Assembly (NCBI GenBank): GCA_947474435.1
Contig: CANJII010000034.1
Location: 1-34,177, forward strand
Origin: Chitinophagaceae bacterium
Lineage (GTDB): Bacteria > Bacteroidota > Bacteroidia > Chitinophagales > UBA10324
Direction: 5' to 3'
Length of the DNA stretch: 34,177 bases
The notes below the pieces were generated by a model. It had not been told where the DNA came from and searched no databases. It was given only the letters and a program-made list of their open reading frames with translations. Made by a program: the position numbers and the translations under genes. Below are positions 2,476 to 13,290 of this stretch, one piece after another; positions within the stretch are counted from its first letter, which is position 1; each line of letters begins with the position of its first letter.

Positions 2476-3129
2476 ATGCAGTTAAACAAGAAAGTTAATG
2501 GAACATCCCGGACTTCCAGTCGGGAAAAGGAGGAAGGCACAGAGCAAAAAATAATTGCTGCTGCACGCGGAATATTTCAGCGTAAGGGAATGGCTGGTGC
2601 ACGGATGGAAGAAATAGCAAAAGAGGCAGGCATCAATAAAGCATTGCTTCATTACTACTTCCGCTCGAAGGAAAAATTATTTGAAGTGATTATGAGTGAA
2701 GCAAAAATGCAAATGCTCAGTCGCCTTTATCCGATTCTTGGTGGTGATGATTCACTATTTATAAAGATTGAAAAATTTGTAGAGAGTTATATCAGCTTCG
2801 TTACTGACAATCCATTGCTCCCCGGATTTATTCTGCACGAAATCACTATGAATCCTGAAAAAATTTCAGAGCAATTAATAAAGAAAGGCGGACGACCAAA
2901 CCTTTCTAATTTTTTTCATCAGGTAGAAGCGGAAATAAAAAGGAAGAACATCATTGCCGTTCAACCCGAACAATTATTCATGAACATGCTTTCGATGTGC
3001 GTGTTTCCATTTGTCGGGCGACCGATGTTGCAAGCCGTTATGAATGTGAACGACAAAAAATTCAATCAGCTGCTGGCTGAACGCAAAAAAGAAATTCCAA
3101 AATTTATTATCAATGCAATCAAAAGATAA
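2476..3129 (+). CDS. TetR/AcrR-family transcriptional repressor
   Basis: A 217-residue one-component regulator. The N-terminal helix-turn-helix lies at about residues 43-66 (MEEIAKEAGINKALLHYYF, then RSKEKLF), a textbook TetR recognition region preceded by a charged tail of about 20 residues. The C-terminal half would be the ligand-binding and dimerisation domain, which is not conserved enough to name a ligand. It is the first gene of an exporter operon, the same order as in the E. coli ybiH(cecR)-ybhGFSR system, so it probably senses an exported compound. A palindrome touching the start region (2457-2472) is the likely operator. The stop codon is immediately followed by a palindromic repeat element at 3130. 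ATG start; there is no Shine-Dalgarno sequence, as is usual in this phylum. Confidence 0.93.
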   Translation: MQLNKKVNGTSRTSSREKEEGTEQKIIAAARGIFQRKGMAGARMEEIAKEAGINKALLHYYFRSKEKLFEVIMSEAKMQMLSRLYPILGGDDSLFIKIEKFVESYISFVTDNPLLPGFILHEITMNPEKISEQLIKKGGRPNLSNFFHQVEAEIKRKNIIAVQPEQLFMNMLSMCVFPFVGRPMLQAVMNVNDKKFNQLLAERKKEIPKFIINAIKR

Positions 3130-3237
3130 AGCCCCACACCTAACCTCTCCTCCAAGGGGAGAGGAACAGTCGCGAAAAAATTGGACGCGCTGTATTTTCC
3201 CTCCCTTTAGGGGAGGGGTACCGATGTTGGTGGGGCT
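3130..3237. repeat. REP-like palindromic element overlapping the start of the tolC-like gene
   Basis: A 108-bp element bounded by an 8-bp perfect terminal inverted repeat: AGCCCCAC (3130-3137) and GTGGGGCT (3230-3237). Inside are two GC-rich hairpins: CCTCTCC pairing with GGAGAGG (about 3144-3164), and CCCTCCC pairing with GGGAGGG (about 3199-3217). It starts at the base after the tetR stop codon and runs into the next gene, so the ATG at 3224 lies inside its right end. Its base composition is much more GC-rich than the surroundings. Paired palindromes of this kind resemble REP/BIME elements or small MITEs. Mobility is inferred, not shown. Confidence 0.75.
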
Positions 3238-4468
3238 ACTTTTCACCTTTCACTTTTCGTTTGCACAAACCATTTCGCTCGATGAGTGTTACACCGCAGC
3301 AGCAGCGCATTATCCCACAGCATCACAAACAACATTGTACCAGCAAATTGCTGATTTGCAATCGAAGAATCTGCAAACTGTTTTTCTTCCTCAGGTGCAG
3401 TTGAATGGGCAGGCAGTTTATCAGTCACCTGTTGTAACAGTTCCGATAAAAATTCCGGGAATAGATATTCCTGAACCAAATCATGACCAGTACAAAGTAA
3501 CTGTTGATGCAAGTCAGTTGATTTACGATGGCGGATTGGCAAAAAAGCAAAATGAAATTCTGCAACTAAACTCTCAGGTGCAGCAACAGCAAGTGCAGGT
3601 TGATTTATACAAAGTGCGCGACATGGTGTTGCAAGCATACTTCAATGTGTTGCTGTTAAATCAGCAGAAAGAGATTTTACTGTTACAGAAAAGCACATTC
3701 GATAAAAAACTGCAACAGGTAAATTCAGGAATCAAATTCGGGACAGTATTACAGTCGCATGCAGATATTATCAGCGCACAAAAAATCAGCATTGACCAAA
3801 GCGTTGCCGAGATTGATGCAAACCGCGATGCTGCTATTCAGATTTTGAATTTGCTCACCGGAAAACAATTTAACAGTAACACCACTTTCAGTTTACCATC
3901 TGCAATTACTAATGACGATTCAGCACATGCCGGACGACCTGAGCTGACACTTTTTTCTTTGCAACAAAAAAACTTATCGCTGCAATCTGATTTGAGTCAC
4001 GACAAACGATTACCAAAACTCAGTGCATTCGGTCAGGGTGGTTATGGTCGTCCGGGATATAATATTTTCGATAATACTTTTCAGCCATTCTTTACTGTTG
4101 GCTTAAAACTGAACTGGAATATTTTAGGTTGGAACACCGCCAATCATGAATCGGAAATTTATTCGCTCAACACACAAATTATTCAGAAGCAACAGGAAAC
4201 TTTTGTGCTGAATACCGACATGCAATCCATTCAACAGAATGCGGATATTACCAAGTACAATAAATTATTAGAATACGATGCGCAGTTGGTGACACTGCGA
4301 AAATCGATTGCAGCAACAATAGAAAATCAATTGGAAAACGGAACGGCAACTGCAACCGATTATGTGACCGAACAAAACAATGCAACACAGGCGGAGTTGA
4401 ATTTAAAAATTCATCAATTGCAATTACTGCAGGCAGAAATGAAATTAAAAAACACAAGAGGATACTGA
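3224..4468 (+). CDS. TolC-family outer membrane efflux protein
   Basis: Outer-membrane channel of a tripartite exporter. The mature protein begins with ISLDECYTAAAAHYP, the usual opening of Bacteroidota TolC proteins, and continues with long helical repeats rich in Q, L and N, including the duplicated pattern NGTATATDYVTEQNNATQA near the C terminus. From ATG 3224 the protein is 414 residues, a normal family length, with a short hydrophobic signal (MLVGLLFTFHFSFAQ) that lacks the usual basic residues. An alternative ATG at 3113 overlaps tetR and adds 37 residues encoded almost entirely by the repeat element; it would supply a basic but very long n-region. GGGAGGGG seven bases upstream favours 3224, though Shine-Dalgarno sequences carry little weight in this phylum. 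The hlyD-like gene starts one base after the stop codon. Confidence 0.92.
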   Translation: MLVGLLFTFHFSFAQTISLDECYTAAAAHYPTASQTTLYQQIADLQSKNLQTVFLPQVQLNGQAVYQSPVVTVPIKIPGIDIPEPNHDQYKVTVDASQLIYDGGLAKKQNEILQLNSQVQQQQVQVDLYKVRDMVLQAYFNVLLLNQQKEILLLQKSTFDKKLQQVNSGIKFGTVLQSHADIISAQKISIDQSVAEIDANRDAAIQILNLLTGKQFNSNTTFSLPSAITNDDSAHAGRPELTLFSLQQKNLSLQSDLSHDKRLPKLSAFGQGGYGRPGYNIFDNTFQPFFTVGLKLNWNILGWNTANHESEIYSLNTQIIQKQQETFVLNTDMQSIQQNADITKYNKLLEYDAQLVTLRKSIAATIENQLENGTATATDYVTEQNNATQAELNLKIHQLQLLQAEMKLKNTRGY

Positions 4469-4469
4469 T

Positions 4470-5426
4470 ATGAAAAGTTTTTTTACTCCAGCAATAGACC
4501 GACGCGGTTTTAGAAACCGCGTCGTACTCAGCGCTCAAAACCGCGTCGGTTTCGCCATCGTTGCAATGCTATTTGCTCTTGCTTCGTGTAATGACGGAAA
4601 CGGAAATTCCGATGCATACGGAAATTTTGAAACTAATGAAGTAATGGTTTCATCGCAGTCAAGCGGACAAATCATTCAATTGAATTTTCGTGAAGGATTA
4701 ACGCTTTCAGCGGGAGAAATTGTTGGTTGCGTTGATACGAATGCATTGCATTTAAAGAAGCAACAATTGTTTGCCATGATGCAGGGTTCGCAATCTCGCA
4801 ATCCGAATATCGGTGCGCAGATTGAAGTGCTGAAGCAACAGAAGTCTGTTCAGGAGAAAGAAAAAAATCGTATCGCAGGTTTAGTAAAAGAAGGAGCCGC
4901 CACACAAAAAAATTTAGATGATATCACCGGAGCTATTCAGGTGATTGATAAACAAATTGAAAGTTTGCAAACACAATTTGAACCTGTGAGCAGCGATTTG
5001 AAATCATTGAATGTGCAGGTTGACCAGGTGAACGACCAGATTAAGAAATCCTTGATTGCCTCTCCTATCAACGGAGTGGTGCTTGATAAATATTCTGAGA
5101 TGGGTGAAGTGACTGCGACTGGAAGGCCACTGTTTAAAATTGCTCCACTTGATACGATGATTCTTCGAGTGTTTGTGAGTGGCGACCAGTTGCCGAAAGT
5201 TAAGCTCGGACAAACTGTTGCAGTGTTCGTTGACAAAAACGAAAAAGAAAATACGCAACTCAGCGGAACTGTTTCGTGGATTTCACCGACGGCTGAGTTC
5301 ACACCAAAAATTATTCAGACAAAGGAAGAACGCGTGAATCTGGTGTATGCAGTGAAAGTATTAGTGAAAAATGATGGCTCACTTAAAATCGGAATGCCTG
5401 GGGAAATAAAATTTATAGAAAAATAA
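4470..5426 (+). CDS. HlyD/YbhG-family periplasmic adaptor, predicted lipoprotein
   Basis: Membrane fusion protein linking the inner-membrane ABC exporter to the TolC-like channel. A lipobox LASC (Cys at about residue 40) marks it as a lipoprotein. The biotinyl-lipoyl-like half motif (VMVSSQSSGQIIQLNFREGL), a long coiled-coil hairpin (residues about 105-190) and the second half (SLIASPINGVVLDKYSEMGE) are followed by a beta-barrel region (ILRVFVSGDQLPKVKLGQ). The 318 residues are typical of the YbhG group. The signal region is odd: between MKSFFTPAI and FAIVAMLFALASC lie about 18 residues (DRRGFRNRVV through NRVG) encoded by a palindromic repeat read in frame. It is the third gene of the tetR operon, and the SNF2 gene follows after 29 bp. 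Confidence 0.92.
   Translation: MKSFFTPAIDRRGFRNRVVLSAQNRVGFAIVAMLFALASCNDGNGNSDAYGNFETNEVMVSSQSSGQIIQLNFREGLTLSAGEIVGCVDTNALHLKKQQLFAMMQGSQSRNPNIGAQIEVLKQQKSVQEKEKNRIAGLVKEGAATQKNLDDITGAIQVIDKQIESLQTQFEPVSSDLKSLNVQVDQVNDQIKKSLIASPINGVVLDKYSEMGEVTATGRPLFKIAPLDTMILRVFVSGDQLPKVKLGQTVAVFVDKNEKENTQLSGTVSWISPTAEFTPKIIQTKEERVNLVYAVKVLVKNDGSLKIGMPGEIKFIEK
4499..4549. repeat. Palindromic repeat read in frame inside the hlyD-like signal region
   Basis: Three copies of one arm occur in 51 bp. CCGACGCGGTTT (4499-4510) is followed after the 3-nt loop TAG by its complement AAACCGCGTCG (4514-4524, an 11-bp perfect stem). Another complement, AAACCGCGTCGG (4538-4549), follows and matches the first arm over all 12 bases. 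It has no stop codon in the gene frame and encodes part of the n-region of the lipoprotein signal. It is GC-rich compared with the flanks. The sequence differs from the element at 3130-3237. Confidence 0.8.
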
Positions 5427-5455: not shown

Positions 5456-8400
5456 ATGACTAAGCAGGAATTAATAGCATTATGGATGAAGGAATGCGAC
5501 GACACTACAAAAAGTCGCGGCAGCAGGATTTATGATTCATTTGAACCTGCTATTCGAATTGTCAGTATTGATTATTCAGGAGTTAAATTAAAAGTCCCAA
5601 GCGAAAGCAGAAAAAAGCCGTACGATGTAAGTATTGATTTTGAAGCTGAAGATGCTTTGCCCTATAAATGTTCGTGCGAAAAATTTGAAAACTCCAATGA
5701 ATGTAAGCATGTATTTGCTGCGCTTTTATTTCTATCAAAAAACAGCAGTGCATTGGATTTAATTGTTGAATCAACAACAATTGATGAGGAAGAAGATTTT
5801 GAAGATGATGAATTGCACGCCGATGAATTAGATGATGAAGAAAATGATGAAGATGAAATTGATTATAATTCTGCTGATAATGTTTCTGTTCTCAACGAAA
5901 CAACAACAGAAAACTCTATCGACAAAACAATAACCGAACATCAGAATTTTACAAAAGCAATTCCCGGATACAAAGGATTTAAAGTTCAGTTGCATTCGTT
6001 CAACGATTATTTTTTTCTCTCTTGTCCGTACGATTTATTTACACTGAACAATGAAGTATTAAACACTACGCTTTCTAAAAAAATAATTAATCACCTCGAA
6101 TTTAATTTTCGTGTCAGAGAAAATTTGACACCTCATCAGATTGTTCATTACGATAATGATGAAACCATTTTTGTCCATTGCAATTGCCGCACCGAGCAAA
6201 CTACTCCCTGCATTCATTCGTACTGTGCGCTCTACTTCATTCAAAAAAATATTGATAAATTTTATTTTAAAAACTTAAATGAATTAGTTGAAATACAAAA
6301 TGAGTTACTAAAGCCATACGGCCTGACCTGCGCAGATCCCGAATCATTCGAATTCAAATTCGGGTACGATAAGTTTGGCGAATATTCCATTCTGAAAAAA
6401 CCTGATTATTACATTGATATAAAAAATGAAATTGAGTTTACCGAATTCAGTAAAAAGTTAATCGGAAGCAGAAGCAAAAAAATAAATGTGCGACCGAAAT
6501 TGCAGGTACAGGATTTTATTGATTATGAAATTGGTTTTTCATTCGTGTTTTCGAACAAGGCAATTTTATCATTCGAACTTTTGCCAATTGGCATTCAAAC
6601 AAAAAAAAATAAAAAGGAGTATAAAAAATTATCATTATCCAATCAAGCCAGTCTTGCTTACCTGCAACCGCTTGCCGATGATTTTTATTTTTTACTGGAG
6701 AAACTAACTACCGATAATTTAAAAAAGCATTTAATGCAAACCGGTCAGGGCCAGAGTGTATATAACTATTACAGTGGTATGACCTACCTGGATCCGAAGC
6801 AAAAGGAAATTTTAATTGAAAGATATTACGAGGTACTAAAACAACTGTGGAATTACCTAAGTGAGCAACAGAATACATTTATACAATCAGGAGAATACTT
6901 TTCAAAAAAAGAACTGACAACCATTTCATTAAGTAAATCTTTTGCAAAAATTTATTTTGAAACAGAAACCAATGAAAGGAATTTTATCATTCAGCTGAAA
7001 TTCAAAGCAGATGATGAAAGCACGCCGGTTGAATTCCGGCCACCTTTCTTTTTCAAAACTCCTGAACAATTATTTCTTCTCGAAAATTTTGAACAACTGA
7101 ACCTGATCAGGCAATTTCCAAAAGGGAAATTGATTTTTCCGTTGAAATATAAAATGGATGCGTACCGGAAAATTATTCTTCCGTTGAAAAAACTTTATTC
7201 TGTAACAGATAAAGATCAGGGTGAAATAAAACTGAAGCAAACCGAATTCATTCCAAGGGTGATGTTGAGTGAGTTGAGCGAAAAGTTTCTTTTAGTAAAA
7301 CCAATGTTTGGTTACGGAAAATCTATATTGAGTATTGACGAAGGCGATGACTTTGTTGATTTAGGTGATAAGAAGGAGATTTTATACGAGCGTAACAGGG
7401 AAAAGGAAAAATTATTTTTTGAAGAACTCCGTTTGCTTCATCCGCTTTTTGAAAAACAAAAACAAAATCCGTTTTATTTTTTACCGGCAGATGAGGTAAT
7501 GAAGAACAGCTGGTTTATACAAACAATTTCTTCTTTGAAGGAAAAAAATATTCAGGTGCTTGGATTAAAGCAATTGAAAAAATTTAACATCAATCCGAAT
7601 TTGCCAACCATGGAAATGAAGGCCGGCAATGATCTGGATTGGTTTGACCTGCAGATAGAAATAAAATTCGGCGACCTGATTGCCAATTTGCAGGATGTAC
7701 AAAAGGCAATTAAGAAAGGTGAAACCATGGTTGCACTCAGTGATGGTTCAATGGGAATTATACCCGAAGAATGGCTCACCAAATTCGGAATGGTAATGAA
7801 AATGGGTGATGCAAAATCCGGCAGCCTGAAAATTTCGAAAATGCATTTTACTGTAGTGGATGAATTGCATTCATTTATTAAAGACGATGATTTGCTTCGT
7901 GAATTGGCTGAGAAAAAAGAAAAACTCCACAACATTGAAAACATAAAACCCGAAACGAAAATTGAAAATATTAATGCCACGCTTCGTCCTTACCAGCTAT
8001 CGGGTTTTGAGTGGATGCAGGTGTTGAATGAGTTGGGTTGGGGCGGATGTTTAGCGGATGATATGGGATTGGGAAAAACTTTGCAGGTAATTACTTTTCT
8101 TAATCACCTGAAAAAATCAAACCCTGATTCAACGCATCTTGTCGTGTGTCCCACTTCACTTATTTATAATTGGGAAAATGAAATAATGAAATTTTGTCCA
8201 TCACTTCGTTATCATATTTATTATGGTGTAGAAAGGGAATTAAATGAAACACACTTTGCCGATTACGATGTAATTATCACCTCGTATGGAATTATGCGAA
8301 ACGATATAAAAGAGTTAACGCAATTTTTATTTCACTACATCATACTAGACGAATCGCAATACATAAAAAATCCTGACGCACAAATTTCAAAAGCGGTGCA

Positions 8401-9370
8401 GGTGTTACGAGCAAAAAATAAACTGATTATGAGTGGTACTCCGGTGCAGAACAACACTTATGATTTGTATGCGCAAATGAATTTTTTAAATCCGGGGTTG
8501 CTTGGCAATCGCGAATTTTTCAGAACTGAATTTGCAACTCCCATTGACAAAAACGGTGATAAGGATAAAGTAAACGATCTACGAAAACTTATTTTTCCTT
8601 TCATGTTAAGGCGCACAAAGGAACAAGTGGCAACTGATCTTCCAGATAAAACAGAAACCATTTTGTGGTGCGAAATGGCCAGTGAGCAACGGTTGGTGTA
8701 TGAGCAATACAAAAATTATTACCGAGATAAACTGCTGAGTAAAATTGATGAGGTGGGAATGAAGAATGCAGGCATTTATGTGTTGGAAGGTTTATTACGA
8801 ATGCGGCAGATATGCGACAGCCCTGAGTTGCTGAAGGATGAAGAAGTGGAAACAAAGCAGTCGGTAAAAATTGAAGAACTATTGCGCGAGTTAAAAGAAA
8901 ATACCGGCAGTCATAAGGTTTTAGTGTTCTCGCAGTTTACCGAAATGTTAAAACTGATTCGAGGGGAATTGGAAAAGGAAAAAATTTCATTTCTGTATCT
9001 AGATGGAAGTATTCCAGCTGCCACCAGAAAAAAATGGGTCGATCAGTTTCAAACCGATGATACAGTAAAAATATTTTTAATCAGTTTAAAAGCAGGCGGA
9101 GTCGGACTCAATCTCACTGCTGCTGATTATGTATATCTTGTTGATCCGTGGTGGAATCCTGCAGTGGAAGAGCAGGCCATTGACCGCACACATCGCATTG
9201 GTCAGGCGAATAAAATTTTTGCGTATCGAATGATTTGTAAAGATTCAGTGGAAGAAAAAATTATGAAACTGAAGGAGCGGAAAAAAGGAATCAGCACGGA
9301 ATTGATCAGTGAAGAAAAAGGGTTTGTAAAAAAACTCACACGAGATGATGTAGAATTTTTATTCAGTTAA
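5456..9370 (+). CDS. SNF2-family ATPase/helicase with two SWIM zinc-finger motifs
   Basis: A 1304-residue cytoplasmic Swi2/Snf2 ATPase predicted to translocate on or remodel protein-DNA complexes. Order of parts: SWIM motif 1 with C72, C74, C83, H85; a strongly acidic stretch (about residues 106-140); SWIM-like motif 2 with C242, C244, C252, H254; a long middle region matching the position of the bacterial SNF2-associated domain; then the ATPase. Motif I is DDMGLGKT (868-875). Motif II is DESQ (965-968) rather than the usual DEAH or DEGH. SGTPVQN follows, and the C-terminal helicase lobe has QFTEMLKL, YLDGSI, KAGGVGLNLTAADYV and DRTHRIGQ (1243-1250). All catalytic motifs look intact. It sits within the exporter operon, 29 bp after the adaptor and 4 bp before the first ABC ATPase, with no visible promoter of its own. 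Its substrate and its link to export are unknown. Confidence 0.94.
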   Translation: MTKQELIALWMKECDDTTKSRGSRIYDSFEPAIRIVSIDYSGVKLKVPSESRKKPYDVSIDFEAEDALPYKCSCEKFENSNECKHVFAALLFLSKNSSALDLIVESTTIDEEEDFEDDELHADELDDEENDEDEIDYNSADNVSVLNETTTENSIDKTITEHQNFTKAIPGYKGFKVQLHSFNDYFFLSCPYDLFTLNNEVLNTTLSKKIINHLEFNFRVRENLTPHQIVHYDNDETIFVHCNCRTEQTTPCIHSYCALYFIQKNIDKFYFKNLNELVEIQNELLKPYGLTCADPESFEFKFGYDKFGEYSILKKPDYYIDIKNEIEFTEFSKKLIGSRSKKINVRPKLQVQDFIDYEIGFSFVFSNKAILSFELLPIGIQTKKNKKEYKKLSLSNQASLAYLQPLADDFYFLLEKLTTDNLKKHLMQTGQGQSVYNYYSGMTYLDPKQKEILIERYYEVLKQLWNYLSEQQNTFIQSGEYFSKKELTTISLSKSFAKIYFETETNERNFIIQLKFKADDESTPVEFRPPFFFKTPEQLFLLENFEQLNLIRQFPKGKLIFPLKYKMDAYRKIILPLKKLYSVTDKDQGEIKLKQTEFIPRVMLSELSEKFLLVKPMFGYGKSILSIDEGDDFVDLGDKKEILYERNREKEKLFFEELRLLHPLFEKQKQNPFYFLPADEVMKNSWFIQTISSLKEKNIQVLGLKQLKKFNINPNLPTMEMKAGNDLDWFDLQIEIKFGDLIANLQDVQKAIKKGETMVALSDGSMGIIPEEWLTKFGMVMKMGDAKSGSLKISKMHFTVVDELHSFIKDDDLLRELAEKKEKLHNIENIKPETKIENINATLRPYQLSGFEWMQVLNELGWGGCLADDMGLGKTLQVITFLNHLKKSNPDSTHLVVCPTSLIYNWENEIMKFCPSLRYHIYYGVERELNETHFADYDVIITSYGIMRNDIKELTQFLFHYIILDESQYIKNPDAQISKAVQVLRAKNKLIMSGTPVQNNTYDLYAQMNFLNPGLLGNREFFRTEFATPIDKNGDKDKVNDLRKLIFPFMLRRTKEQVATDLPDKTETILWCEMASEQRLVYEQYKNYYRDKLLSKIDEVGMKNAGIYVLEGLLRMRQICDSPELLKDEEVETKQSVKIEELLRELKENTGSHKVLVFSQFTEMLKLIRGELEKEKISFLYLDGSIPAATRKKWVDQFQTDDTVKIFLISLKAGGVGLNLTAADYVYLVDPWWNPAVEEQAIDRTHRIGQANKIFAYRMICKDSVEEKIMKLKERKKGISTELISEEKGFVKKLTRDDVEFLFS

Positions 9371-9374
9371 AAAA

Positions 9375-10292
9375 ATGAACGAAAGAGTCATCGCCACCAA
9401 CATCACCAAATCATTCCGCAGCACAAAAGCTTTGGATGCTGTTTCATTCTCGGTGAATGAAGGCGAGTTATTTGGATTTATTGGTCCTGATGGCGCGGGT
9501 AAGAGCACGCTCTTTCGCATACTCACAACTGTGATGAATGCAGATAGCGGAGATGCGCTTGTGGATGGTTTTCATTTGAAAGACGAAATTGCTATTCGTT
9601 CGCGAGTGGGATACATGCCCGGAAAATTTTCTTTGTATCCTGATTTATCTGTTCAGGAAAATCTGGAGTTTTTTGCAAAAGTTTTTGGCACAACTGTTAA
9701 TGAAAATTATTCCATCATCAAAGAAATTTATGTGCAGCTCGAACCATTCAAAGATCGCCGTGCAGGAAAATTGAGTGGAGGAATGAAACAGAAACTCGCT
9801 TTGTGTTGCGCACTCATTCACAAACCAAGAGTTTTATTTTTAGATGAACCAACAACGGGAGTTGATCCGGTTTCACGACGGGAATTCTGGGAAATGCTCG
9901 GAAGATTAAAACAAAGCGGACTCACCATTCTGGTTTCCACTCCATACATGGACGAAGCAAGTCGTTGCGATCGTGTGGCATTAATTCAGAAAGGAAAAAT
10001 TCTCGATATAGATCCACCGGGTGTGATTACAAAAAAATTTCCGTTGCATGTGATTGCAGTGAAGTCAGATAACATGCAGAAACTGCGGAAGGATATTTTA
10101 AAAGTTGAATATGCTGAAAGTGTTTATGGCTTCGGAGAATATTTACACATCACGATGAAGAAAGAAAATTCATCAACAGAAAAAATTGAATCGCTTTTAA
10201 AACAACAAGGTCATCAGCACACAGAAGTGAAATTGATTGAAGCAGGAATTGAAGATTGTTTTATGCACCTTATGGAGCACAACAAAAACTGA
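9375..10292 (+). CDS. ABC exporter ATP-binding protein 1 (YbhF N-terminal-half-like)
   Basis: Energises the ABC-2 exporter encoded downstream. Walker A is GPDGAGKST (residues 37-45), an Asp-containing variant shared, as I recall, with the first half of YbhF/RbbA proteins. The signature is LSGGMKQK (from 133), Walker B is VLFLDEPT with D157-E158, and the D-loop is GVDPVSRR. After the nucleotide-binding domain is a tail of about 80 residues. At 305 residues it corresponds to the first half of the fused double-ATPase YbhF; the second half is the next gene. It begins 4 bp after the SNF2 stop codon, so it is probably co-transcribed with it. ATG start. Confidence 0.95.
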   Translation: MNERVIATNITKSFRSTKALDAVSFSVNEGELFGFIGPDGAGKSTLFRILTTVMNADSGDALVDGFHLKDEIAIRSRVGYMPGKFSLYPDLSVQENLEFFAKVFGTTVNENYSIIKEIYVQLEPFKDRRAGKLSGGMKQKLALCCALIHKPRVLFLDEPTTGVDPVSRREFWEMLGRLKQSGLTILVSTPYMDEASRCDRVALIQKGKILDIDPPGVITKKFPLHVIAVKSDNMQKLRKDILKVEYAESVYGFGEYLHITMKKENSSTEKIESLLKQQGHQHTEVKLIEAGIEDCFMHLMEHNKN

Positions 10293-10310
10293 AAATCTAA
10301 AATTGAATAA

Positions 10311-11063
10311 TTGAAACTCACAGGAGAAAATATTATTGAAGTTGAAAACTTAGTGAAGCGATTCGGTTCGTTCACGGCGGTTGATAATATTTCTTTTCAG
10401 GTGAAGAAGGGTGAAGTGTTTGGATTTCTCGGAGCGAATGGTGCGGGGAAAACCACAGCGATAAAAATGTTAATCGGTTTGTGGTCGCCGACTTCGGGCA
10501 AAGCAAATGTTGCCGGATTTGATTTATTTACTGAAGCAAATCAAATCAGAAAAAACATTGGCTACATGGCGCAACGGTTTTCGTTGTACGAAGATTTAAC
10601 GGTGATAGAAAACATTCAGTTCTACGGTGGCATTTATGGTTTGCGAAAAAATATTTTAAAGGAAAGAGCTGAGGAGTTGATTTCGGAATTGGGAATGGAA
10701 AGTTTCAGAAAGGAATTAATAAAAAATATTCCGCTCGGGTGGAAACAGAAACTGGCATTGTCGGTTGCTATGATTCACAAACCGAAAATTGTTTTTCTCG
10801 ATGAACCCACAAGCGGTGTTGACCCGATTACAAGAAGACAATTCTGGGATTTGATTTACAACGCTGCGGAAAAAGGCACCACTGTTTTTATTACCACGCA
10901 CTACATGGATGAATCGGAATACTGCGACCGTGTGAGCATAATGGTGGATGGAAGAATTGAAGCGCTTGATACTCCCGCGCAATTGAAAAAACAATTCAAT
11001 GCAGAAAGTATGGATGAAGTTTTTCTGCGATTAGCAAGACCAACAGAATCAATCAGCAAATGA
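10311..11063 (+). CDS. ABC exporter ATP-binding protein 2, TTG start (YbhF C-terminal-half-like)
   Basis: Second ATPase of the exporter, 250 residues. Walker A is GANGAGKTT (residues 41-49), Walker B is IVFLDEPTSGVDP, and the switch His is in ITTHYMDE. The signature is degenerate: IPLGWKQK replaces LSGGxxQ, as I recall from the second half of YbhF-type proteins, so one composite ATP site may be specialised. The start must be TTG at 10311: the codon before it is TAA and no ATG precedes Walker A. AGGAG at 10322-10326 lies downstream of this TTG and would fit only a rarer ATT start at 10335. The stop codon overlaps the start of the first permease as ATGA. Confidence 0.93.
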   Translation: MKLTGENIIEVENLVKRFGSFTAVDNISFQVKKGEVFGFLGANGAGKTTAIKMLIGLWSPTSGKANVAGFDLFTEANQIRKNIGYMAQRFSLYEDLTVIENIQFYGGIYGLRKNILKERAEELISELGMESFRKELIKNIPLGWKQKLALSVAMIHKPKIVFLDEPTSGVDPITRRQFWDLIYNAAEKGTTVFITTHYMDESEYCDRVSIMVDGRIEALDTPAQLKKQFNAESMDEVFLRLARPTESISK

Positions 11064-12172
11064 ACAGAAGACGGTTCTTTGGATTTTTACAAAAAGAATT
11101 TCGTCACATTTTTCGTGACAGAAGAACGATGCTCATTCTGTTCGGAATGCCGATTGTGCAGATTTTGCTTTTTGGTTTTGCAATTACCAACGAAATAAAA
11201 AATGTGAATGTGGCAGTGCTTGATATGGCGCACGATGATGTGTCGCGCGATATCACCAATCGGATTCTTTCTTCAGAATATTTTCATCTCTATCAGAATC
11301 TTCAATCAGAAAAAGAAATTGAAACTGCATTTAAAAGTGGAAAGGTGAAGGAGGTAATTGTGTTTGAAAATAATCTGGCGAAAAATATTTACTCAAAAAA
11401 TATTGGCAACATTCAAATCATCAGCGATGCTACAGATCCGAATACCGCCAATACAATTGTCGCCTACACCCGTGCAATACTTTTGAACTACCAGCAGGAA
11501 TTAAACAAAGGCACAAAACCACCTGCCATTATTCAGACTGAAGTGCGCATGTGGTTCAATGAAGAGTTGAAAGGAGTTTATCTTTTTGTTCCGGGTGTTA
11601 TGACCATCATCATGATGCTGGTGAGCGCAATGATGACAAGCATTTCTCTTGCTCGAGAAAAAGAAACCGGCACATTGGAAGCGCTCATGGTTTCTCCACT
11701 GAAATCATGGCAGGTGATTTTAGGAAAAGTGATTCCGTATCTCGTACTTTCATTCAGTATTACACTTGTTACACTTGGGCTTTCCATGTTTGTGTTTCAT
11801 GTCCCGATTCGCGGTAATATTTTTCTATTGCTCGGTGAAGTGTTGTTGTTTGTTATCACCGCACTCTCCTTCGGAATTTTAATTTCTTCCATCGCGCCAA
11901 ATCAAATGGCAGCCATGTTAATTTCTATGATGGGATTAATGTTGCCCACAATTATTCTCAGCGGATATATTTTTCCGATTGATAATATGCCCGTGCCGTT
12001 ACAGGTGATCAGTAATATAATTCCCGCGCGATGGTTCATCAGCATGTTGCGTGATATCATGTTGAAGGGTGCAGGATGGAGCGTGGTCTGGAAAGACACT
12101 TGTGTTCTTGCGTTTATGGCGGTTGTGTTTTTGTTTTTGGCTTCGCGCAGATTTAAAATGAAACTCAGATGA
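11060..12172 (+). CDS. ABC-2 type exporter permease 1 (YbhS/YbhR-like)
   Basis: Inner-membrane permease of 370 residues with the standard ABC-2 layout. There is one N-terminal membrane segment (about residues 22-42, LFGMPIVQILLFGF), a periplasmic domain of about 130 residues (NVAVLDMAHDDVSRDITNRI), then about five membrane segments from about 175 to the end. The cytoplasmic coupling helix carries the family sequence EKETGTLEALMVSPLKSWQ. Start and stop overlap the neighbours by 4 bp on both sides (ATGA), showing tight coupling to ATPase 2 and permease 2. The substrate is probably a small hydrophobic compound or drug (inference from the family). Confidence 0.95.
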   Translation: MNRRRFFGFLQKEFRHIFRDRRTMLILFGMPIVQILLFGFAITNEIKNVNVAVLDMAHDDVSRDITNRILSSEYFHLYQNLQSEKEIETAFKSGKVKEVIVFENNLAKNIYSKNIGNIQIISDATDPNTANTIVAYTRAILLNYQQELNKGTKPPAIIQTEVRMWFNEELKGVYLFVPGVMTIIMMLVSAMMTSISLAREKETGTLEALMVSPLKSWQVILGKVIPYLVLSFSITLVTLGLSMFVFHVPIRGNIFLLLGEVLLFVITALSFGILISSIAPNQMAAMLISMMGLMLPTIILSGYIFPIDNMPVPLQVISNIIPARWFISMLRDIMLKGAGWSVVWKDTCVLAFMAVVFLFLASRRFKMKLR

Positions 12173-13290
12173 GAACAATCATTGTAATTATCCGAAAGGA
12201 GTTTCTTCAAATATTCCGCAACCGCGCGATGTTGCCGCAAATAATTATGATGCCACTGATACAGTTGCTCATACTTTCCAATGCAGCAACTTTTGAAATC
12301 CGTCACCTGAATATGCATGTGATTGATCAGGATCAAAGTCAGGCATCACGACAACTGATTGGAAAATTTAAAGCAAGTAATTATTTCGAACTATCCGATT
12401 TTTCATTTGATGAGAAACATGCTGATGAAGACATCATGCAGGGAAAAGACCGTTGCATACTCATGATTCCAAAAGGATTCGAACATGACCTGATGAAGGA
12501 GCAGCACACAAAATTGTTGCTCAACATTAATGCGATTGATGGCGCTGCAGCAGGTGTAATCAATACTTATGCACTCAGCATTATTCAGAATTTCAACCAG
12601 CAGATTGATGCGCAGTGGATCAATCAGCAACAATTTGATCAGCAGAAAATATTAAATACTCCTTACTCATTCTGGTATAATCCGTACATGAATTATAAAA
12701 CTTTTATGGTTCCTGGATTGATTGTAATGTTGCTTACGATGGTCGGTATGTTCATGAGTGCACAAAACATAGTGCGCGAAAAAGAAATCGGAACCATTGA
12801 ACAAATAAATGTTACACCTATAAAAAAAGCACATTTCATCATTGGCAAGCAAGTTCCGTTTTTAATTATTGGTTTAGTGCAACTCACCATTGGATTACTG
12901 GTGGCCCGATGGGTTTTCAGTATTCATATTCTCGGTTCCATTCCAATCATTTATTTATTCGCAACTGTTTATCTCATCACATTGCTCGGTTTCGGATTAC
13001 TGATTTCTACAATGGTGGAGACACAACAGCAAGCCATGTTTCTCGCCTGGTTCTTTATGGTCATATTTATTTTAATGAGCGGATTATTTACTCCAATTGA
13101 AGCAATGCCACAGTGGGCGCAGAACATTACTAAGTTTAATCCAATCGCTTACTTCGTTTCAGTAATGCGAATGGTTGTGCTCAAAGGTTCATCAATAAAA
13201 GATATTCTTCCTCAACTAACAGCAATCAGCATTGGTGGATTGGTGATGTGTTCGCTGGCTACTTTGCGCTACAGAAAACGCGCTGGATAA
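12169..13290 (+). CDS. ABC-2 type exporter permease 2 (YbhR/YbhS-like)
   Basis: Partner permease of 373 residues, paralogous to the gene before it. It has an N-terminal membrane segment (IIMMPLIQLLILSNAATF), a periplasmic domain beginning LNMHVIDQDQSQASRQ, and C-terminal membrane segments after the coupling sequence REKEIGTIEQINVTPIKKA. Two such permeases with two ATPases match the YbhSR heterodimer plan. It overlaps permease 1 by 4 bp and is the last gene of the exporter operon; no hairpin terminator is visible after it. Confidence 0.95.
   Translation: MRTIIVIIRKEFLQIFRNRAMLPQIIMMPLIQLLILSNAATFEIRHLNMHVIDQDQSQASRQLIGKFKASNYFELSDFSFDEKHADEDIMQGKDRCILMIPKGFEHDLMKEQHTKLLLNINAIDGAAAGVINTYALSIIQNFNQQIDAQWINQQQFDQQKILNTPYSFWYNPYMNYKTFMVPGLIVMLLTMVGMFMSAQNIVREKEIGTIEQINVTPIKKAHFIIGKQVPFLIIGLVQLTIGLLVARWVFSIHILGSIPIIYLFATVYLITLLGFGLLISTMVETQQQAMFLAWFFMVIFILMSGLFTPIEAMPQWAQNITKFNPIAYFVSVMRMVVLKGSSIKDILPQLTAISIGGLVMCSLATLRYRKRAG

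Follow-up and report, generated by a model that had tools for sequence, protein, structure and literature searches.

A dispersed palindromic repeat at a tetR-tolC junction of Chitinophagaceae: predicted translation within genes and a probable part in a TolC signal peptide

The 108-bp palindromic element at the junction of a tetR-family gene and a tolC-type gene (positions 3130-3237, + strand) belongs to a dispersed palindromic repeat family. It is best explained as two dissimilar hairpin units of REP type joined head against head in inverse sense, drawn from a genus-level, non-autonomous palindromic repeat family whose copies, judging from their reading frames, are often translated. The sequence evidence suggests that tolC translation probably starts at an ATG at position 3113, upstream of the element, in which case the element would supply the n-region of the signal peptide and not the start codon. 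The window, that is, the whole stretch of 34,177 nucleotides that we analyzed, corresponds to contig C34 in a draft genome of 3.5 Mb (G000, the own genome below).

Structure of the element

The element, which resembles a REP dimer, begins at the base that follows the TAA stop codon of the tetR-family regulator gene (2476-3129, + strand; PF00440, E 3.6e-16) and is bounded by an 8-bp terminal inverted repeat, in which AGCCCCAC at 3130-3137 pairs with GTGGGGCT at 3230-3237. Half A (3130-3177) runs from the head AGCCCCAC through a hairpin within 3144-3164 (arms CCTCTCC/GGAGAGG) to a AACAGTCGCG tail; half B (3189-3237) runs from CTGTATT through a hairpin within 3199-3217 (arms CCCTCCC/GGGAGGG) to GATGTTGGTGGGGCT, and the two halves are unlike. 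They match our models R1 and R2 with 72 and 71 bits, respectively, each model including this copy itself. The preliminary description gave the length, terminal repeat, two hairpins and position after the tetR stop correctly, as it did the ATG at 3224 and the codons for MLVGL.

Folded end to end, 3130-3237 reaches -56.7 kcal/mol against a mean of -37.1 for shuffled sequences (z -5.54), and none of 200 shuffles was as good. The two hairpin patterns have chance expectations of 0.01 and 0.00 in the window and each was found twice, the second match of one being a one-mismatch site at 5059 and that of the other simply the first match read on the opposite strand. By itself, the 8-bp end sequence does not stand out, with 9 matches at no more than one mismatch against 8.2 expected. 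Chance hairpins as the source of the element are ruled out by the fold z-score together with the DNA copies and the half-A model matches described below.

A dispersed repeat family

The preliminary description had proposed a REP-like dispersed repeat, and a search of the genome for other copies found them. At the DNA level, and counting the element, a search of the own genome returns 10 sites with E ≤ 1, of which 7 have E ≤ 6.5e-4. A covariance model of half A, built from 19 copies and applied at E ≤ 0.01, gave at least 39 matches in the own genome, again including the element, when 150 of 371 first-look candidates were scored; single halves make up most of them and half-B sites matched on the opposite strand a few, and the figure is therefore no tally of full dimers. 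With up to 150 candidates scored per genome, the congeners G004, G002, G005 and G003 gave at least 32, 25, 23 and 4 matches, respectively, the congener G001 gave none, and G010, which belongs to the same family and another genus, gave at least 6. Across the 30 genomes searched, 4 further ones have one or two weak matches and 20, G001 included, have none. In a wider draw from the order, with stricter filters and 30 candidates scored per genome, 9 of 198 genomes match half A at E ≤ 1e-5, namely six already named carriers and three genomes with one match each. A pattern search returned 11 forward and 6 reverse matches against 1 and 0 for the control; in several cases a single site was matched on each strand or the matches were successive members of a tandem array. 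Such an array occupies positions 1-706 of locus L024 (contig C57 of the own genome), with 3.9 copies of a 181-bp unit whose half-A-like stem has a further hairpin inserted in the loop (CCCCTAACCCCTCTCC ... GGAGAGGGGAACAGTCTCG); the pattern search placed array-type sites also on contig C35, at 33674 and 33854.

Stem A is supported by covariation. Over the 19 copies, some rows of which are orthologous, compensatory changes occur at six of nine pairs and 97% of cells pair; cells with a double change number 23, against 6.3 in shuffles, and none of 500 shuffles reached that count. Weaker measures are unremarkable, 26 of 500 shuffles reaching six pairs and 436 the number of pair types. The half-B model comprises 7 sequences and has a compensatory change at one pair only. 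Besides 3130-3237, the A+B arrangement occurs at L055, L056, L006, L008, L064 and L065 (half B of L064 being weak, with a score of 15), and most other copies of the family are single halves. The low-scoring copies at L018, L019 and L154 and the first at L143 (scores 16-18) are less certain. Comparison of sequences indicates that the family has been mobile, because other copies are species-specific and their orthologous sites empty.

Copies inside genes

In the scanned loci, 36 of 66 element groups lie in frame within a codon-supported ORF, a few of them being orthologous pairs such as L001/L055 and L154/L172. For the own genome the figure is 23 of 37, with coding support on both sides for 10, while random positions in the same loci fall within a codon-supported ORF in 91% of cases and are supported on both sides in 64%. 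Among the 26 own-genome groups with an HMM score of 28 or more, 15 are in a supported ORF and 6 are supported on both sides. Copies are thus rarer in supported ORFs than random positions are, and we therefore conclude that genes are avoided, though far from forbidden; the family is REP-dimer-like DNA that is tolerated as coding sequence.

Pfam matches of the element-bearing genes include leucyl-tRNA synthetase (two copies), a synthetase of class II (D/K/N) that bears a GAD domain and that we take to be AspRS, dihydroorotate dehydrogenase, DnaE (in two of the scans), a sigma factor, 2-oxoglutarate dehydrogenase E1, a cysteinyl-type synthetase, RNase P protein, TsaE, methionine synthase, SufBD, an epimerase and others. 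Of the 25 element-bearing proteins that were scanned, tolC among them, 8 have the element inside a single Pfam match extending to either side of it: AspRS, the second LeuRS copy, DHO_dh, TsaE, methionine synthase, SufBD, Peripla_BP_2 and Epimerase.

For two genes, empty sites mark the copy as an insertion; the other in-frame copies are assigned from the codon model and Pfam. AspRS of the own genome carries a 45-nt copy in frame, and the site is empty in all seven aligned orthologs (G001, G002, G003, G004, G005, G007 and G010, the 7 of 15 other genomes with a match). In a TPM-domain protein the complete A+B element adds a net 96 nt, relative to G002 and G005, between MMKKL and the hydrophobic core; the site is empty in G001, G002, G003 and G005 and in the more distant G007, G008 and G009, and a search of G004 gave no close ortholog. 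Inspection by eye of these two empty sites revealed no clear target-site duplication.

Nine of the 23 in-frame copies of the own genome precede hydrophobic stretches; positions drawn at random from those ORFs do so in 7.6% of cases (binomial p 2.5e-5). We do not lean on this enrichment, as the thresholds were set by us, the N-terminal copies at L138, L139 and L149 lack a start ahead of them and probably escape translation, and the tolC leader went unflagged in the automatic hydrophobicity test. In two similar glycosyltransferase-like proteins from different genera, L075 in G010 and L173 in G004, distinct copies of the element occupy almost the same point of the protein, a difference that we liken to that between leaders at tolC.

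The tetR-tolC junction across species

At the junction, G000, G004 and G010 carry the element and do not have the stop-overlapping ATG (the sequence there is GATAAAG). G002, G003 and G005 are without the element, their tolC ATG overlaps the tetR TGA, and their leaders, which have a basic n-region, measure 34-37 residues up to the match; tetR of G005 is recognizable by its tail alone, and a tolC match sought in G001 was not found. Relative to G000, the element is 93.5% identical in G004 and 82.4% in G010, and the matched parts of tetR are 89.9% and 77.5% identical. For AspRS, G010, which lies outside the genus, shows 84% identity against 91-95% within it. Upstream of tetR the own genome has an imperfect 102-bp direct repeat (2078-2179 and 2249-2350, 81% identical).

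Because G010, a member of another genus, has the element at the same junction, the insertion would either predate the genus and have been replaced in some species, or have arrived with a transferred locus. The earlier suggestion that a mobile repeat rebuilt the 5′ end of tolC gains from the different junctions of G002, G003 and G005, while its second part, the supply of the start codon, is not well supported (see below). As to mobility, the copy in G010 (82%), of another genus, counts in part against it at this junction, and the species-specific copies elsewhere count for it.

The element-free leaders have a repeat of their own. A dispersed repeat of the CGCAGAGACGCAAAGGCGCAGAG type, unrelated to the element at 3130-3237, is clear in the tolC n-region of G002 and G005 and degenerate by eye in that of G003, and further copies lie at L058, L142, L204 and L210. 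In the window, directly after the element, heptamer-like TTTTCAC repeats (3238-3259, + strand) code for the hydrophobic FTFHFS of the leader; L179 has a longer heptamer array in this position, and one of TTCACCA units is present at L163:193.

The translation start of tolC

Read from ATG 3113, the tolC-type outer membrane efflux gene (3113-4468, + strand; PF02321, E 2.2e-26) overlaps tetR by 17 nt and translates the element, its ORF crossing the element from end to end in frame with tolC, as the preliminary description had foreseen for this start. Alone among the forward frames, this one stays open across the element in all three carriers (G000, G004 and G010) despite indels, and the two candidate ATGs are in frame in each, at distances of 111, 111 and 117 nt, respectively. 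We regard the open frame in three species as modest to weak evidence, because stop codons are scarce in the element. Nor is there a sign of selection on the leader sequence, because six of the seven base differences between the elements of G000 and G004 alter a residue.

The best argument for the start at 3113 comes from a parallel layout elsewhere. In the TPR/SH3 protein L019 (one of the lower-scoring copies) and its relatives in G004 and G002, the ATG precedes the stop of the upstream ORF (495-503 codons) by 11 nt, this stop adjoins the element or lies at its edge, and no ATG, GTG or TTG occurs between the element and the hydrophobic core. In the TPM protein, too, the conserved MMKK start precedes the element; an alternative ATG exists inside it.

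The leaders themselves differ in charge. The protein from 3113 begins MQSKDKAPHLTSPPRGEEQSRKNWTRCIFPPFRGGVPMLVGLLFTFHFSFAQ and has a basic n-region. From 3224 it begins MLVGLLFTFHFSFAQ, with no K or R before the hydrophobic stretch, which bears out the earlier remark that this signal has no basic residue, and 14 residues would likely precede the cleavage site. All 28 homologous loci that we inspected by eye (two element carriers left out) have an ATG 15-37 residues before the match and a leader with K or R. The 20 bases upstream are 85% A+T for 3113 and 35% for 3224, and the mean unpaired probability in G000 is 0.63 at 3113 against 0.29 at 3224; for the upstream and downstream ATGs it is 0.69 against 0.38 in G004 and 0.56 against 0.27 in G010. 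Counting against 3113, the first base of the start codon in G010 is unpaired with a probability of 0.02 at the upstream ATG and 0.97 at the downstream one; the start codons of the three element-free congeners are also predicted to be paired. The N-terminal copies at L138, L139 and L149 and the unflagged tolC leader (see above) weigh against it as well.

The preliminary description had the element itself supply the tolC start, at the ATG inside half B (3224-3226, + strand), with the G-rich hairpin arm as the ribosome-binding site and MLVGLLFTFHFSFA-Q as the leader, a reading that we consider unlikely. This ATG and the G-rich arm preceding it are present in G000, G004 and G010, and the downstream ATG of G010, whose start codon is the more open of the two, would give a leader of 17 residues, MLVGLVAFLFTFHFSLA. 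Against it stand the 14-residue leader of G000 without K or R where homologous leaders carry them, the position of the ATG behind a GC-rich hairpin with the SD-like arm paired in the predicted fold, and the layout of L019, which needs an upstream start. Bacteroidota depend little on SD sequences, which we also count against a start at 3224. The two other in-frame half-B copies with the motif, at L005 and L074, are in genes read through from upstream in another frame, and we dropped the idea that the element acts as a general portable start codon.

We give still less credence to a non-coding element, a transcribed intergenic hairpin that would set the ratio of tetR to tolC expression or mRNA stability. 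The fold of 3130-3237 is indeed very stable, and many REPs at the N-terminal end of ORFs have been judged possibly non-coding and acting post-transcriptionally, according to the passages of PMC3733652 that concern them. However, a scan of the region found no terminator-like site within the element (the lone + strand match nearby, at 3229-3247, straddles its right end, and the region has 3 in total against 2.1 expected), and the copies in frame deep inside enzymes and in the TPM signal peptide suggest that the family is often translated. A wholly untranslated element would, moreover, need a tolC start after 3237, and no ATG occurs between 3227 and the conserved part of tolC. That the element is a conserved local feature of the junction and not a mobile repeat can be set aside as highly improbable, its presence at the same junction in another genus notwithstanding, given dozens of dispersed copies, species-specific insertions with empty orthologous sites, and the element-free junctions of G002, G003 and G005.

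A second palindrome in the adjacent gene

The next gene of the operon encodes an HlyD-family adaptor (4470-5426, + strand; PF13437, E 2.3e-15), and a second palindromic repeat family (CCGACGCGGTTTT ... AAAACCGCGTCGG) lies in frame in its lipoprotein signal (4499-4549, + strand). The leader up to the Cys has 40 codons in the own genome and 20 in G003, G004 and G005; the extra part holds the CCGACGCGGTTTT/AAAACCGCGTCGG palindrome, which the leaders of those three do not contain. Matches to this second family were found in 5 of 16 genomes, these being five of the six genomes of the genus. Between the HlyD gene and ABC exporter genes at 9375-13290 lies an ORF of 1304 amino acids (5456-9370), presumably an SNF2/SWI2 helicase judging by its motifs; in G004 an ABC-type ORF directly follows HlyD by eye.

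Taking the leaders of exporter and adaptor together, we offer, as a serious though tentative proposal, that dispersed palindromic repeats are recurrent material for signal-peptide n-regions in this genus: unrelated families would have replaced each other at the exporter leader, the adaptor leader would draw on a second family, and cleaved leaders would tolerate foreign codons if frame and charge fit.

Discussion

We favor the following scheme, with a probable start at ATG 3113. The family would insert at gene junctions and inside genes, presumably as hairpin-forming DNA copied by a trans-acting enzyme, and the intragenic survivors would be those insertions that kept the frame. Where a copy came to lie at the tetR-tolC junction, tetR ends with TAA (TGA in the element-free congeners) and the stop-overlapping tolC ATG is absent; translation would begin inside the end of tetR, cross the element, which amounts to about 36 codons, several of them for K or R, and continue into the hydrophobic core. 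The repeat would thus become the n-region of the TolC signal peptide and be removed on export.

The own genome has three Y1_Tnp genes (L011-L013), two of which score as IS200-type and one as RAYT-like, below the cut-off (63.3 against 80 bits). Because no half-A or half-B match lies in the flanks fetched for these genes (1.5 kb on each side; 0.3 kb downstream for L013, where the contig ends), we dropped a RAYT as the direct mobilizer. The RAYT-like gene L013 has palindromic arms of its own upstream (CCCCGCCGTGTC/GACACGGTGGGG, L013:1284-1337), which are unlike the element at 3130-3237, and CACCGTGTCC downstream at the contig end (L013:1981-1995); arms and downstream sequence are possibly the cognate repeat of another family. 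Bacteroidota carry TnpA-Y1 of subclass 2.6, flanked by atypical structures according to the part of PMC6006769 drawn on here, and L013 may be of this kind, as its YMHHNP resembles the subclass motif in our own reading.

With REP/REPIN sequences and their TnpA-REP (RAYT) enzymes the element shares short hairpin units with a conserved head, dispersed and with compensatory changes in the stem, and the inverted pairing of two units into a longer palindrome, 3130-3237 folding end to end. It differs in that no RAYT-like gene is flanked by it in the sequence fetched and in that its copies are often intragenic. In the sections of PMC3733652 consulted, intragenic GTAG/CGTC REPs and their dimers code for protein parts, including those of tRNA synthetases and DnaE; REP ends supply stop codons of neighboring ORFs; and recB of two Xanthomonas species is hit by a REP at about the same site. 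DnaE, named there among the genes hit by this related REP type, is also a carrier here. Those families are defined by their tags, and the section on intragenic REPs, as far as drawn on here, does not mention signal peptides (PMC3733652). In our alignment of 19 copies, no GTAG/GT[AG]G or CGTC tag was seen by eye beside stem A; because this tag is absent and no copy lies beside a Y1 transposase in the sequence fetched, we do not file the element as a member of the GTAG/CGTC REPs.

Set against a MITE, for which a target-site duplication and terminal repeats matched by a transposase would be expected, the element has an 8-bp terminal inverted repeat, and by eye the two empty sites give no clear duplication. 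For the Yersinia RU-2 MITE in YPO1552, the portions of PMC2759123 and PMC2229807 cited here detail one locus, by prediction; our case has empty-site orthologs and several genes. Our literature search found no paper combining a palindromic repeat element, in-frame insertion, a signal peptide and Bacteroidetes, and we claim no wider absence.

Rickettsia palindromic elements (RPE) were reportedly described by Ogata and colleagues in 2000 and 2002. Intragenic palindromes are best known from Rickettsia, and RPE, of about 150 bp and with 44 insertions in R. conorii, lie in frame inside unrelated genes, as stated in the part of PMC10969869 used here. The likeness to our family, which is one of mechanism and behavior and not of descent, consists in palindromic repeats in frame inside unrelated genes whose orthologs are without them, here AspRS and TPM. 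The differences are the phylum, the two-hairpin units occurring alongside single halves, and the recurrence in signal peptides. An untagged REP-dimer-like family acts in Bacteroidota, as represented by metagenome assemblies, as such elements do in Rickettsia, with close relatives that keep the empty sites. Annotated gene starts close to such repeats should be treated with caution, and one secretion leader with unrelated repeats in different species offers a natural series for how repeats create N-termini. By most likely encoding the front of a secretion signal, the palindromic repeat adds a fresh case to an established route by which repeats reshape proteins.
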